From: Actinomyces sp. ph3
Lineage (GTDB): Bacteria; Actinomycetota; Actinomycetes; Actinomycetales; Actinomycetaceae
Direction of reading: 5' to 3'
Assembly: GCF_000308055.1 (NCBI RefSeq)
Contig: NZ_CAGY01000003.1
Span: 62,001 to 126,000 of the forward strand
DNA length: 64,000 nt
Shown here: piece by piece, positions 12,234-17,464 of the stretch
How positions within the stretch are numbered: position 1 is the stretch's first letter
Layout of the letters: each line of letters begins with the position of its first letter
Program-made: the position numbers and the translations under genes
Notes under the pieces: model-generated
Database searches by the model: none
What the model was told of the DNA's origin: nothing
The model's input: only the letters and a program-made list of their open reading frames with translations

Positions 12234-14678
12234 TCAGTGCGCGCGGCGCAGCCTCATGGAATTGAGGACGACGCACACCGAGGACATGGCCATCGCCGCG
12301 GAAGCGAGCATCGGGTTGAGAAGCCCGAAGATCGCGAGCGGAATCATGATGACGTTGTAGAAGAAGGCCCAGAAAAGGTTTTCTTTAATGACCTTCAGGG
12401 TCGCGCGCGAAATACGAATCGCAGCGGCAGCCATCGTTGGATCTGAGCTCACCAGCGTCATGTCCGCGACAGCGATCGCACTATCAGCACCCGAACCCAT
12501 GGCAATACCCAAGCCCTGAGTTGAAGCCTGTGCAAGAGCCGCAGCGTCATTAACGCCGTCACCCACCATGGCTACCTGGTGGCCCTCTTCTTGAAGACGC
12601 ATCACGGCATCGCGCTTGTCTTGGGGAAGGACTCCCGCGATGACCGAATCGATACCCACCTGCGAAGCGACAAAACGTGCTGCAGATTCGTGATCACCAG
12701 TGAGCAAGGTCGGAGTGATCCCCAAGGCCTTGAGCTGGGCAATCGCATCCTTCGATGACTCCTTCACCGTGTCGCGCACAACGAAGGCGCCCAGAAGCAC
12801 GCCATCGAGGTGCTCGGGAAGTTCACGCGTTTGGGGCGTGAGTGTCGCTGTGGGTGCTTGAGCGGAGGCAAGCCGACGCGAACGAACCTGCGGCTCGTAG
12901 CCCGCTGCCTTCACGACCTCTTCAAGCTGAGCATCGCTGTAATCGTGCTTGAGGGTAATTCGAGCACTCTCAGTTGCCAGGTTCACTTGGGCCTGAACAC
13001 CATCAAGCTTGCCCAACTTGCGCTCGACCCTGCGGACGCAGGAGGCACATGTCATGCCGCCCACGGCCATATCGATGATGATTCCGCCGTCCTCGTCCTC
13101 TTGCGTAGGCTCTGAGGCCTGCGTCGAAGCCGTATCACCAGCGGAGGAAGTCTCCTGCCAGCCCTCAACGCGCGCGCTGGCCACAACGGTTGCCCCCGTG
13201 GCCTCGGCCTCGGAAATGGCGGAAAGTGCAGACTCAGGAAGGGAAATACCCAGCTTACGCAGCCAGCTCACGCGGCCGGCTAGAAGCAGTGCCCCATCCT
13301 CGGCGAGCGCGGAAACCCCAAGTCCGGGGTGGTTGCGCAGCTCGCGAACCGGGTGCGAGGGAAGCTCGCGCTCGCGGGCAGCCGCAGTGAGCGCGCGGGC
13401 AATCGGGTGCTCCGAGGCCGACTCCAGCGAGGCGGTCACGCTGAGTGCATCCTCGCCGGCCTGGGCATCGGGGGAATTCGCGCTTCCATCGGGAAGGATG
13501 ACGGACTCCAATGACATAGCACCCTTGGTCAAAGTGCCGGTCTTATCAAGGAGGATCGTGTCGATACTGCGCGTGCGCTCAAGAACCTCAGCGGAAGAAA
13601 TGAGGATACCCATCTGCGCGGCCTTACCCGAACCCACAAGAAGGGCGGTTGGCGTAGCCAGACCAAGAGCGCAGGGGCAGGCAACAACCAACACTGCAAC
13701 GGCCGCCGTGATTGCGCTTTGAACGCCAGCTCCCGCAATGAGCCATCCCGCCAAAGTCAGAAGGGAAAGCACAATGATCGTCGGAACGAAGACCGAAGAG
13801 ATACGGTCCGCAAGACGTTGGACCGGAGCCTTCGTTGCCTGGGCCTCGGTGATCATCTGGCCGATGTGAGCCAGCTGGGTTTCGGAGCCAACGGCGGTTG
13901 CACGGACGATTAACGCTCCCGAGGTGTTGAGAGTGCCACCCGTGACCGCGCTGCCGGGGGATACTTCACGGGGAAGAGATTCGCCCGTCATCAGTGAAGT
14001 ATCCAAGGCGCTGGAGCCCTCTTCAACGATGCCATCGGTTGCAACCTTGTCTCCGGGACGAACCTGGAAGAGGTCTCCGACGCGAAGTTCAGCTGCGGGG
14101 ATGGTGCGGAACTGACGATCCGTGCCGCTTCCTTCAACGAGGATTGCATCCTTCGCGCCGAGCTCAAGAAGAGAACGCAATGCATCACCGGAGTGGTAGC
14201 GCGTCCGTGCTTCCATCAGACGGCCGGCCAGAAGGAAAGTAACGATTGCGCAGGCACCCTCGAAGTAGATTTCCGCGTGCGTTGCGTGGCTGCTCGCGGG
14301 GATGAGCGACATATGCATCCGCATGCCGATCATGCCTGCGCCGCCAAAGAGCAGGGCATACCACGACCACAGGCTCGAGGCTATGACACCGAGGGAGACC
14401 AGGGTATCCATGGTCGAAGATCCATGGCGTCCCGCTTGGAAGGCAGCGCGATGGAAGGGTGCGGCACCCCAGATCACGACCGGTAGCGAGGCGAAAGCGA
14501 CGACCCACTGCCAGCCGGGGAACTGAAGTGGAGGAACCATGGATAGTCCCAGAACGATAATGGTGAAGGGGAGGGTCACAAGGAAGCGGTTGCGTAGATC
14601 CGCGGCGCGGCGCAGCAGACCGTCTCCCAAGTGCTCGCTCTCAGTATCAGTTGATGTGTGGCGAGTTTCGGTAGTCAT
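12234..14678 (-). CDS. copA: Copper-exporting P1B-type ATPase with internal HMA domain
   Basis: 814 aa heavy-metal P-type ATPase that should pump Cu(I) out of the cell. In order: transmembrane helices 1-4 (about 33-155), actuator domain with TGES (231-234), the metal-site helix with CPC (334-336), DKTGT phosphorylation site (378-382), the HP motif of the ATP-binding domain (424-425), GDGVND (706-711) and the last helix pair with the YN motif (774-775). No metal-binding domain precedes helix 1. Instead an HMA domain with GMTCASC (541-547) lies between the nucleotide-binding and phosphorylation subdomains, flanked by acidic and Ala/Thr/Pro-rich linkers. Last gene of csoR-copZ-copA. Confidence 0.95.
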   Translation of the reverse strand: MTTETRHTSTDTESEHLGDGLLRRAADLRNRFLVTLPFTIIVLGLSMVPPLQFPGWQWVVAFASLPVVIWGAAPFHRAAFQAGRHGSSTMDTLVSLGVIASSLWSWYALLFGGAGMIGMRMHMSLIPASSHATHAEIYFEGACAIVTFLLAGRLMEARTRYHSGDALRSLLELGAKDAILVEGSGTDRQFRTIPAAELRVGDLFQVRPGDKVATDGIVEEGSSALDTSLMTGESLPREVSPGSAVTGGTLNTSGALIVRATAVGSETQLAHIGQMITEAQATKAPVQRLADRISSVFVPTIIVLSLLTLAGWLIAGAGVQSAITAAVAVLVVACPCALGLATPTALLVGSGKAAQMGILISSAEVLERTRSIDTILLDKTGTLTKGAMSLESVILPDGSANSPDAQAGEDALSVTASLESASEHPIARALTAAARERELPSHPVRELRNHPGLGVSALAEDGALLLAGRVSWLRKLGISLPESALSAISEAEATGATVVASARVEGWQETSSAGDTASTQASEPTQEDEDGGIIIDMAVGGMTCASCVRRVERKLGKLDGVQAQVNLATESARITLKHDYSDAQLEEVVKAAGYEPQVRSRRLASAQAPTATLTPQTRELPEHLDGVLLGAFVVRDTVKESSKDAIAQLKALGITPTLLTGDHESAARFVASQVGIDSVIAGVLPQDKRDAVMRLQEEGHQVAMVGDGVNDAAALAQASTQGLGIAMGSGADSAIAVADMTLVSSDPTMAAAAIRISRATLKVIKENLFWAFFYNVIMIPLAIFGLLNPMLASAAMAMSSVCVVLNSMRLRRAH

Positions 14679-14749: not shown

Positions 14750-14995
14750 TCAGAAATCGCGAGCGATTCCGACCAGTTCGAAGCCGGCCTCGGAAACAGC
14801 GTCACGCAGGGCGTTGTCATCGAGTTCGGTGTTGGTGACAACGGTGGCCTTGGAGGTTGCGCCGGAGTTGAGGATGACCTCGACGTTCAGGACGCCGGGG
14901 ACCTCGCTCAGTTCTTCGGTGACAGATGCGACGCAGTGTCCGCAGGTCATTCCGTTGATGGAGAGTTCGACGGTGCGATCAATTTCCTGTGCCAT
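14750..14995 (-). CDS. copZ: CopZ-like copper chaperone
   Basis: 81 aa free-standing HMA domain that carries Cu(I) to CopA. The metal-binding pair is C18 and C21 in NGMTCGHC, followed by the beta-alpha-beta pattern (VEVILNSGATSKATV, LRDAVSEAGFELV). It is 71 bases upstream of copA and 51 bases downstream of csoR, all on the minus strand, and has an AAAGG ribosome site. Function follows from the family and the copper operon context. Confidence 0.93.
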   Translation of the reverse strand: MAQEIDRTVELSINGMTCGHCVASVTEELSEVPGVLNVEVILNSGATSKATVVTNTELDDNALRDAVSEAGFELVGIARDF

Positions 14996-15046: not shown

Positions 15047-15331
15047 TTAGGACTTCACCAGTCGCGCGATTGCCTTTGTGGCTTCTTGGATCTTTTCGCG
15101 TCCTTCTTCTTCGCTGTGTTGAGCGGCGTGAAGAACGCAGTGATTCATGTGGTCTTCAAGGAGTCCCAATGCAACGGAGTCCAGTGCGGACTGCACTGCA
15201 GAAATTTGAGTGAGGACATCAATGCAGTAGGTGTCCTCTGCAACCATGCGTTGCAGCCCCCTTAGCTGGCCTTCAATTCTGCGAAGGCGCTTGAGGTAGT
15301 GCTCGGTTTCTTCGGTATATCCGTGAGCCAT
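15047..15331 (-). CDS. csoR: CsoR copper-sensing repressor
   Basis: 94 aa DUF156/CsoR-family repressor that leaves DNA on binding Cu(I). The ligand set falls at C36, H61 and C65, the same numbering as in M. tuberculosis CsoR, and the family motif RLRRIEGQLRGLQRMV is at about 15-30. ATG at 15331 is chosen because it follows AAGGAGG and begins the family sequence; the frame is open about 29 codons further upstream, but that would run through the operator. It is the first gene of csoR-copZ-copA and should repress the operon at 15355-15375. Confidence 0.95.
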   Translation of the reverse strand: MAHGYTEETEHYLKRLRRIEGQLRGLQRMVAEDTYCIDVLTQISAVQSALDSVALGLLEDHMNHCVLHAAQHSEEEGREKIQEATKAIARLVKS

Positions 15332-15354
15332 TGTGTTCCTCCTTGCGCTTTGAA

Positions 15355-15375
15355 ATATACCCCCGGGGGGTATAT
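15355..15375. promoter_or_regulatory. CsoR operator
   Basis: ATATACCCCC followed by GGGGGGTATAT: the A/T-flanked C-run/G-run palindrome typical of CsoR sites, 24 bases upstream of the csoR start and about 100 bases upstream of the divergent hydrolase gene at 15475. Confidence 0.88.
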
Positions 15376-15474
15376 GTGTCAATAGGAAATAAAGATGGGG
15401 AAACTCTCGTTGAATCAATCCGTACGCAGATGCACGTCAGGGGGCTTAGGCTTGCACCAAGGGAAGGAGAGGTC

Positions 15475-16872
15475 ATGAGACGACAACACCACCGCTCGTA
15501 TTACGCACGGCGTCGTGTGCCGGGCTCTTTTACTTCCCTCTACCTGCGTGCGAAAGTCATCCCGCTTGCACCCAAACTGCTCTCCGCGCTCGCGGTTGCG
15601 GGGGCCTCGACACTGGGGTTTCTTCCATCGGATATCCGCTCGCGTCTGCGGATGGAGTCAGATCGTCTGGGTGAACAGGTATCAGAACAATCCCAATCGA
15701 TCTTCTTCCGCGACCCCGGATTGGACACCCTTTTCGTACGTGTTCTCTGCGGTATCGCTGGCAGTGCCGGGAAAATCGTCCACGCAGCAGCGGCACTGGA
15801 CTCTGTCATTGGATTGGATCGCACAGGCAAACTTCAACGCTTGGCGCAGGTGACGCCTCGTGATGGCTTTGAAGCTCTGATGGCGGGAATGCTCATTGCC
15901 GGTACTTCACTGGGGCAAATGACCGGTGGAACCGCACATGCAGATAAGTATTTTGATTCTGATGGTGGCCAGGATTTTATTGAGATTCCAGGGCGGCCGC
16001 GTTCTCAGGTCAAGCGTCTTTGGGCGCCGCGCTCGCTCCAAGATATGGCAGCGGATATCGATGACATGTACTGGGCTGGAACCTACGGGCAGTCCATCAA
16101 AATCACGCGCGTAGGCCAGGGTGAGACACGGCGTTGGCTCGTTTCGATTCCCGGAACACAGCACTTTGATACTCCATCAACTCCCAACCCGGCAGACATG
16201 GAGGCCAATATTCGAGAGGCATTGGGAATGCCCTCGTCTATGCGCGCGGGGATTATTCTGGCACTTCACCAGGCGATGAGTGAAGAAGGAGTCGATCCCG
16301 AAGGCTTTGCTACGGAGCCAGTGATGCTTGCCGGTCATTCTCAGGGCGGTCTGATCGCGGTGAATTTGGGAAGCCTATCCGCGCAGGAAACAGGAATTGA
16401 TGTCCGCGCAATTCTTGCCATGGGAGCTCCCGCCAGGCGAACACGAATTCGTCCAGAAGTTGTCATGGTTGATATTGCTCACGACCAGGATGTTGTTCCA
16501 TCTACTGATGGAACACCGGCTCGTGCCCCCGACCATCGGATCATGGTGGGACGAAAGCTCATTCAGCCACGACTGCGTGCCCTGTACTATGCGCATTCCT
16601 CATCGACGTACACCGAAACGGTGGGACACCTTGAGCGTCGCAGTGCCATCACCCAGTGGGATCGAGTTGGGCAGGCAGTTCGCACGCTCCAAGCGATGCT
16701 CCCACAGGGCGATGAGCCTACCCGCGTGCGCATCTATGACGTCTGGCAAGAGCTTGATGACCCGAATTCGGGGGTTTGGTCGCGGGTGAAGGGTATTCAT
16801 TCTCGGCAACTCACCAGTAATGCACAAGAAGCTGATGACAATCACGATGGGGTGACGCATGGACGCGAATAG
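15475..16872 (+). CDS. Alpha/beta serine hydrolase, lipase-like (copy 1)
   Basis: 465 aa protein of unknown substrate. The nucleophile motif GHSQG puts Ser289 in place; an acid is likely Asp339 in DQDVVPSTDG and the base His374 in AHSSSTYTETV. The N-terminus is basic with a hydrophobic stretch (about residues 27-50), then a helical region to about 155 before the hydrolase fold. It shares the GTQ, GHSQGG, D-x-VP-x-x-DG and AH-x4-Y landmarks with the gene at 19315, so the two are paralogues. ATG 15475 follows AAGGAGAGG. It overlaps the next gene by 14 bases. It diverges from csoR and shares its regulatory gap. Confidence 0.75.
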   Translation: MRRQHHRSYYARRRVPGSFTSLYLRAKVIPLAPKLLSALAVAGASTLGFLPSDIRSRLRMESDRLGEQVSEQSQSIFFRDPGLDTLFVRVLCGIAGSAGKIVHAAAALDSVIGLDRTGKLQRLAQVTPRDGFEALMAGMLIAGTSLGQMTGGTAHADKYFDSDGGQDFIEIPGRPRSQVKRLWAPRSLQDMAADIDDMYWAGTYGQSIKITRVGQGETRRWLVSIPGTQHFDTPSTPNPADMEANIREALGMPSSMRAGIILALHQAMSEEGVDPEGFATEPVMLAGHSQGGLIAVNLGSLSAQETGIDVRAILAMGAPARRTRIRPEVVMVDIAHDQDVVPSTDGTPARAPDHRIMVGRKLIQPRLRALYYAHSSSTYTETVGHLERRSAITQWDRVGQAVRTLQAMLPQGDEPTRVRIYDVWQELDDPNSGVWSRVKGIHSRQLTSNAQEADDNHDGVTHGRE

Positions 16873-17464
16873 ATCACTCAAGCGGATCTTGGGAATGATG
16901 AATGGCTCTGCGCTGCAGCGCATCTCTGACGATATCCCTCGGATTTCTAATCCCCTGGGCCTAGCTGCTATGGGAATCGCAACGCTCGGAGTGGGGGCTG
17001 CCCTTACGCGTCTGCGGCCAAGCGATAGGGAAGGGCGTTCTCAGCGCTTCGCTCGCATGATCGAGGCAAGGCTTCGCGCAACCCTAGAAAAGCAGGTTGC
17101 GCGGGGGGAATACGGCGATGTGAATTCCGCCCCATGGGATGTCGATCGCTGCGAGGTTCAGGTTAACGAAGGCTTTGGGAAACCAACCATGGTTTGCTTC
17201 ACTGTAGTGATGACGGCTGGCACCGAAGAGCTAGCGGAAGACCTTCGTGCGCATGCTGCGCAGGGTTTACTGGCTGCGGCTGTAGAAGCAGCCTGGCGTA
17301 ATCCCGAAATTGCACCGATTGTCATTGAAGGCAAGCTGCAAAGCGGTGATCAGGACGTCGCCGACATGCGAGCTTTGGGATACTCTTCCCTGCAAGTACG
17401 CCCCGAAGAGCTCTTTGAACGCTTGGGGGCACCCGCATTTGATAGTGGCTGGAGGCCCGTCTAA
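16859..17464 (+). CDS. Hypothetical protein coupled to hydrolase copy 1
   Basis: 201 aa protein that I do not recognise. Its ATG lies inside the end of the upstream hydrolase gene (14-base overlap), so the two are very likely translated together. There is a single hydrophobic segment at about residues 33-50 (LGLAAMGIATLGVGAALTRL), with the rest probably on one side of the membrane. The soluble part is rich in Ala, Glu and Arg and has no known motif. The gene ends eight bases from the end of convergent purB. Confidence 0.7.
   Translation: MDANRSLKRILGMMNGSALQRISDDIPRISNPLGLAAMGIATLGVGAALTRLRPSDREGRSQRFARMIEARLRATLEKQVARGEYGDVNSAPWDVDRCEVQVNEGFGKPTMVCFTVVMTAGTEELAEDLRAHAAQGLLAAAVEAAWRNPEIAPIVIEGKLQSGDQDVADMRALGYSSLQVRPEELFERLGAPAFDSGWRPV

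Follow-up and report, generated by a model that had tools for sequence, protein, structure and literature searches.

A copper ATPase of Actinomycetaceae with its HMA domain relocated into the N domain

The copper ATPase (CopA) encoded in the stretch of DNA analysed here (64,000 nucleotides from Actinomyces sp. ph3, hereafter the window) carries its HMA metal-binding domain inside the last hairpin of the N domain, held by two low-complexity leashes. The copper-ATPase family is known; the internal-HMA architecture is new. Judged from its sequence and models, the protein appears to be an ordinary copper-exporting CopA with a relocated HMA, and copper export is its predicted activity.

Domain order and predicted structure of the window CopA

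A metal-binding domain at a chain end is typical of P1B-1 CopA proteins without defining them, and from zero to six are known. Such a chain-end domain is absent from the window CopA, which has an HMA at residues 533–603 instead. Pfam profiles identify an E1-E2_ATPase domain, a split hydrolase domain and a single HMA in the 814 residues. The PF00403 match at residues 538–595 (46.5 bits against a cut-off of 24.8, E 4.9e-12) is the sole HMA stretch of the protein, and the same search found no HMA in the N-terminus ahead of helix MA. The NCBIfam model for copper-translocating P-type ATPases (TIGR01511) scores 485.7 bits against a cut-off of 397, in two stretches, and the comparison with PDB chains splits around the insert, the best chain (3rfu) matching residues 25–469 and 624–813. 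Along the protein, DKTGT and SEHP are followed by the HMA and then by TGDH (residues 660–663, C-terminal of the internal HMA) and GDGVND. What we take to be the signatures of a P1B-1 copper ATPase (CopA) are present as CPC in M4, YN in M5 and MxxSS in M6. The original prediction, made from the letters and their open reading frames, had stated that no HMA precedes helix 1, that GMTCASC lies at residues 541–547, that the HMA falls between the HP part and the TGDH/GDGVND part, and that low-complexity linkers flank it; the profile search, the translation, the motif order and the composition of both leashes bear this out. The range it had marked (12804–13166, residues 505–625) is essentially the whole insert, that is, the HMA with its two leashes. 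Coordinates are collected in Table 1.

Table 1 Features of the copper locus in the window.
Feature	Positions	Strand	Description
copA	12234–14678	minus	P1B-1 ATPase for copper translocation (814 aa) with its HMA moved into the N domain; Pfam and TIGR01511
GDGVND, P domain	12546–12563	minus	residues 706–711
Strand after insert	12765–12800	minus	residues 627–638; last of N domain, leads into P domain; model and alignment
C-side leash	12801–12869	minus	residues 604–626, low complexity; residues 607–617 pLDDT <50
HMA domain	12870–13082	minus	residues 533–603; PF00403 and AlphaFold2 model
GMTCASC metal-binding loop	13038–13058	minus	residues 541–547
N-side leash	13083–13166	minus	residues 505–532, low complexity; residues 511–529 pLDDT <50
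Strand before insert	13167–13190	minus	residues 497–504; next-to-last of N domain; model and alignment
SEHP nucleotide-binding motif	13404–13415	minus	residues 422–425
DKTGT phosphorylation motif	13533–13547	minus	residues 378–382; invariant in genus comparison
CPC, helix M4	13671–13679	minus	residues 334–336
CopZ-like copper chaperone	14750–14995	minus	81 aa; PF00403 54.8 bits (cut-off 24.8); NF047957 60.3 (below cut-off 85)
CsoR/RicR-like copper repressor	15047–15331	minus	PF02583 107.8 bits (cut-off 22.8); NF052430 131.3 (below cut-off 175)
Perfect 10-nt inverted repeat ATATACCCCC-n-GGGGGTATAT	15355–15375		just upstream of repressor gene

Alignment with 32 CopAs carrying an N-terminal HMA indicates that the insert takes the place of the turn that joins the last two strands of the N domain. 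In an AlphaFold2 model built on a 36-row alignment of the window sequence and the named loci (mean pLDDT 86.2, pTM 0.75), residues 533–603 form a confident HMA fold between two low-confidence leashes. The segment thus combines a profile match, a CxxC and a predicted ferredoxin-like fold. The layout is repeated in the model of a distant family member, L107 (pLDDT 87.1, pTM 0.77). By prediction, from the two models and Foldseek, the A, N and P domains and the membrane helices are intact, and solved copper ATPases align with the window model over its length: LpCopA 4bbj gives the best E-value (TM 0.58 by target length), and of the first rows AfCopA in E1 (7r0g_B, TM 0.83 by target length, rmsd 4.7) gives the best fold match. 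The original prediction had placed the insertion in the N-P linker; the alignment and the strands of the model move it into the last N-domain hairpin. Its further proposal that the HMA sits on the catalytic head holds for this site as well, which lies within the N domain, and the disruption of the ATPase core that it had named as a sign to the contrary is not seen in the two confident models or in the Foldseek match to AfCopA in E1. It is plausible that copper gates ATP use through the internal HMA.

The CopZ-like and CsoR/RicR-like genes lie upstream of copA on the same strand, and csoR-copZ-copA is a known type of operon. Both upstream products score above the Pfam cut-offs and below those of the two NF models (Table 1). 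For the repressor the ATG at 15331 was chosen as start, the listed frame beginning further up at TTG 15418, and the inverted repeat ahead of this gene is, we presume, a likely CsoR-type operator. Two frames that adjoin each other next to the operon (15331–16872, 513 aa, and 16859–17464, 201 aa) gave no Pfam match at E 0.001. Across the whole genome, PF00403 finds two HMA domains, that of CopZ and the internal one of CopA, so no other CopA HMA appears to be available for the job. A protein search located two further P-type ATPase genes in the genome, and CPC and the HMA motif are absent from both frames.

Distribution of the internal HMA

The genus search covered 35 genomes, and 30 of its loci were read. 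GMTCASC stands between DKTGT and GDGVND, in one frame, in 28 of these 30 loci, the window's own copy included; the exceptions are a broken gene in two frames with the motif in the second (L032) and a gene cut by a contig end (L033). The closest named relative among the fetched loci is Actinomyces marseillensis (L105), and Pauljensenia hongkongensis (L106) belongs to the window's genus group. Since L105 and L106 are both from Actinomycetaceae, we take the family searched below to be Actinomycetaceae. In P. hongkongensis HKU8 (genome G008, L032/L106), the recorded copA is divided between two frames, with unresolved residues near the N-side leash.

Within the family, 213 genomes were searched with a profile of CopA residues 480–690 (A2). 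One continuous match spanning the HMA and the P domain was obtained, among the rows listed, in 62 genomes and in 9 of 36 genera: g1 (33/35), g30 (5/6), g17 (11/11), g35 (3/3), g10 (4/4), g25 (2/2), g24 (2/4), g20 (1/1) and g21 (1/1). There is no stop within the match in the 62 spanning genomes, three of which (G008, G014 and G031) have an open frame that is itself broken, cut or short. The other 151 genomes gave a best E of 6.7e-39 or worse, three of them no match at all, and the weaker rows listed show partial coverage, mostly of the HMA only. The search for homologues that the original prediction had proposed as a check thus finds the internal HMA recurring in the family.

Beyond the family, three samples were searched that overlap and in which few candidates per genome were scored, so that they set limits and do not prove absence: among the matches listed, no spanning one in the order sample (396 genomes, of which 361 belong to other families; E to about 1e-26) came from outside the family, and the class sample (394 genomes; listed to E 1e-30) and the phylum sample (396 genomes; listed to E 1e-28) had the window's own as their only spanning match. 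In at least 80 loci from named genomes, an internal HMA was seen in L105, L107 and L108, all Actinomycetaceae, and the gene is interrupted in L106. A proteobacterial match with the HMA and P domain close together (L144) was rejected as another architecture, a 398-residue frame without DKTGT. None of 1590 matching plasmid records has one place covering at least 80% of the insert region.

To classify the position of the motif, 150 gathered frames and the window were reduced to 139 by dropping three duplicates (L001, L105, L110), eight interrupted, cut or short frames (L032, L033, L106, L144, L158, L163, L172, L179) and L160, whose removal was unnecessary. The motif is internal in 55 frames and N-terminal in 84, with none showing both and none showing neither; the classes are defined by CxxC, and its retention is informative only through the empty last class. 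A later set of 95 rows comprises 44 internal and 50 N-terminal proteins and one family row without the motif (L209). Three Actinomyces-type CopAs (L090, L091 and L092) have long low-complexity inserts at another N-domain site, shortly after DKTGT.

Origin and number of relocations

Of the N-terminal CopA HMAs compared, the closest to the window's internal HMA is that of L092, from the same family, with 64% identity, whereas the window's CopZ shares 32% with it. These values rule out that the insert is a captured copy of the CopZ next door. CopZ also lies far out in a tree of HMA domains, which, with 67 columns, resolves little and needs nine position changes. The identities indicate that the internal HMA is CopA's own HMA, relocated, and not CopZ.

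The number of such relocations was assessed on a tree of the ATPase core (95 rows, insert columns excluded, quick method); an alignment to which HMA fragments had been added (A3) seemed misaligned over the N domain and was left unused. In the core tree 41 internal proteins are grouped, the long-branched L089 lies beside this clade, and L085 and L086 of genus g24 group, at full support, with L197, a CopA from that genus whose HMA is N-terminal. Three position changes are needed, and the starred branches force two. Constraining the 44 internal rows to a single clade costs 169 log-likelihood units (p-AU 3e-7, three long rows removed), whereas the other 42 internal rows held together score 11.5 better than the free tree (p-AU 0.69). 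An earlier 70-row tree with fewer N-terminal rows had not rejected a single origin (p-AU 0.2), and an 80-row tree had an Arcanobacterium-like N-terminal clade nested in the internal clade, a nesting that disappeared with more rows. With more rows a single origin is thus rejected. Because the 44-row clade is rejected and the 42-row clade accepted, one main relocation and a second in g24 is the simplest account, and the HMA has apparently been relocated into the same hairpin at least twice. Its sister L086 aside, L085 has an internal HMA that is closest to the N-terminal HMA of L197 (77% identity), followed by that of L205 (68%); no other HMA compared exceeds 65%. Reversal in L197 and L205 in place of the second relocation is a possible, less simple account. 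L205 (genome G166, g24), a CopA-like frame, has an N-terminal HMA and only about 112 residues from DKTGT to GDGVND, with most of the N domain missing; it may be a broken gene, an assembly error or something odd.

The same hairpin of L197 contains a 60-residue insert free of HMA, which has repeats in common with the linker between L197's own HMA and the membrane. The repeat around AGAGAGGTCTGACCCGTCGGCTTC occurs at 20 sites in the genome of L197 (G167) with at most three mismatches, four of them in its copA, and gave no control hits and none in three congeneric genomes. Two loops of this copA contain it in frame. With the repeat so dispersed over the genome, it becomes less likely that the hairpin insert was copied from the HMA linker. 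Shared repeats could, we infer, offer a recombination route for domain moves. In 4 other of the 50 N-terminal rows the hairpin turn is 8–22 residues long.

Possible roles of the leashed HMA and known systems

In copper pumps the function of metal-binding domains (MBDs) is termed enigmatic or elusive in the abstracts of two recent papers (PMC10973460, PMC11970713), the former of which gives mixed proposed roles, delivery included. Recent work disagrees on whether these domains supply copper to the membrane or act as copper sensors that brake the pump. We favour, tentatively, a role of the leashed internal HMA as a regulatory copper sensor on the catalytic head of CopA. Copper-free, the HMA would dock on the head at the A/N interface and hinder turnover; loaded by CopZ or Cu(I), it would let go. 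Autoregulation of this kind has been proposed for the terminal MBDs of LpCopA and ATP7B, and here the domain would be tethered beside its proposed site of action. A sensing role is supported by the conservation of the architecture in the genus and its presence in nine genera of the family, as well as by the hairpin site, the models, the leashes, the origin from a CopA HMA, the two relocations and the copper-type operon.

For LpCopA, the accessible text of PMC11970713 proposes that the MBD, with an autoinhibitory tail, lies at the A/N interface, and describes this MBD as lacking, CXXC apart, sequence similarity to solved MBDs and as resembling zinc-binding domains. The autoinhibitory part described there is the tail ahead of the MBD, which the window CopA lacks. 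LpCopA is thus a weak precedent for an HMA, since its MBD is not HMA-like and its autoinhibition comes from the tail. Relative to the core, conservation of the HMA is 0.90 in internal proteins, against 1.05 in 18 N-terminal proteins of the same family and 0.88 in 17 from other Actinomycetota. By this comparison no tighter constraint on the relocated HMA was found, and there is therefore no sign of a new tight interface.

The leashes of the 55 internal-HMA proteins are rich in A, T, S, P, G, E and D and range from 22 to 83 residues on the N side and from 22 to 84 on the C side. That both leashes look flexible and reach 22 residues or more in all 55 speaks against a rigid coupling of the HMA to ATP binding. 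The two lengths are correlated (Spearman 0.71), and in a test conceived post hoc, after the data had been seen, they also co-vary by phylogenetic contrasts over 44 rows (r 0.55, permutation p 0.0004; 0.0002 on repetition), with the same sign in 31 of 38 non-zero contrasts. The correlation falls to 0.44 without the three strongest contrasts and to 0.35 without the five strongest. Correlations with four other loops in the same test are at most 0.33, one of the four comparisons, that of the N-side leash with the loop after DKTGT, giving p 0.014. The HMA-to-membrane linkers of the 84 N-terminal-HMA CopAs are likewise variable (19–94 residues). In the internal-HMA CopA L089 (genome G161), the N-side leash is 68 residues long with three cysteines, and the M4 motif is CAC, not CPC.

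The leashes might equally let the HMA reach the membrane entry platform. The domain would then be a tethered metallochaperone that takes Cu(I) from CopZ and hands it to the entry site (MB' platform), a role that some models assign to prokaryotic MBDs. The long low-complexity leashes would suit such a role, and their co-variation, corrected for kinship, is expected if both leashes span one distance. The accessible text of PMC10973460 adds the speculation that in prokaryotes MBD-1 fills the platform role of eukaryotic MBD-2. That of PMC11970713, however, argues against delivery by the LpCopA MBD and reports that its isolated core leaves the activity of a truncated pump unchanged (the MBD there is not an HMA), and two moves onto the catalytic head would be odd for a domain working at the membrane. 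On balance, delivery seems unlikely. In our view, leashing to the N domain fits sensing best, and the leash lengths also fit delivery.

Relocation may also have been neutral, with the HMA a mobile accessory whose attachment point hardly matters and the hairpin a site that tolerates insertions. The HMA-free insert of L197, with its dispersed genomic repeat, and the four lengthened turns indicate that the hairpin accepts unrelated sequence, and the unraised conservation of the HMA points the same way. Against this, the architecture persists in nine genera, at least two moves on the tree ended in the same hairpin, the leash lengths co-vary, and CxxC was lost in none of the 139 gathered copies (the classes themselves being defined by it); neutrality is to our minds rather improbable. 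An artefact, or the fusion of two genes by sequencing error that the original prediction had raised, is refuted by the homologues, 62 of the 213 family genomes sharing this layout with stop-free matches, and by two confident models, and is vanishingly improbable.

Returning to sensing, a broader version would describe a class of CopA in which the MBD was repeatedly moved from the N-terminus to the same N-domain hairpin because it works as a lid on the A/N head, leashed and under the control of copper, which we regard as somewhat doubtful. If true, the convergent moves would mark the head, and not the membrane entry platform, as the site of MBD action in bacterial CopA. Congeneric pumps with the HMA at either place exist in g24 (L197 versus L085 and L086). 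They form a natural experiment on the role of the HMA, since the way in which each depends on copper would set delivery apart from regulation with no engineered protein needed.

According to the accessible text of PMC10973460, MBDs are typically N-terminal, and a naming scheme exists for C-terminal ones. A description of an HMA within the N domain was not found among the open-access papers listed by the search, subscription papers being mostly outside it. With the CopAs that have an N-terminal HMA (AfCopA and other, actinobacterial proteins), the window CopA shares the core motifs TGE, CPC, DKTGT, HP, GDGVND, YN and MxxSS and the HMA family, and its model also has the two extra helices; it differs in that two leashes hold the HMA in the last N-domain hairpin and the N-terminus has none. 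The C-terminal metal-binding domain of AfCopA, as far as the accessible sources describe it, is likewise outside the N-terminus but hangs at the chain end, whereas the window HMA interrupts the catalytic head. The eukaryotic ATP7A and ATP7B have extra sequence in the N domain too, but between strands 3 and 4 and not described as an HMA in the accessible text of PMC3308323, whereas in the window CopA the insert lies between the last two strands and contains an entire HMA.
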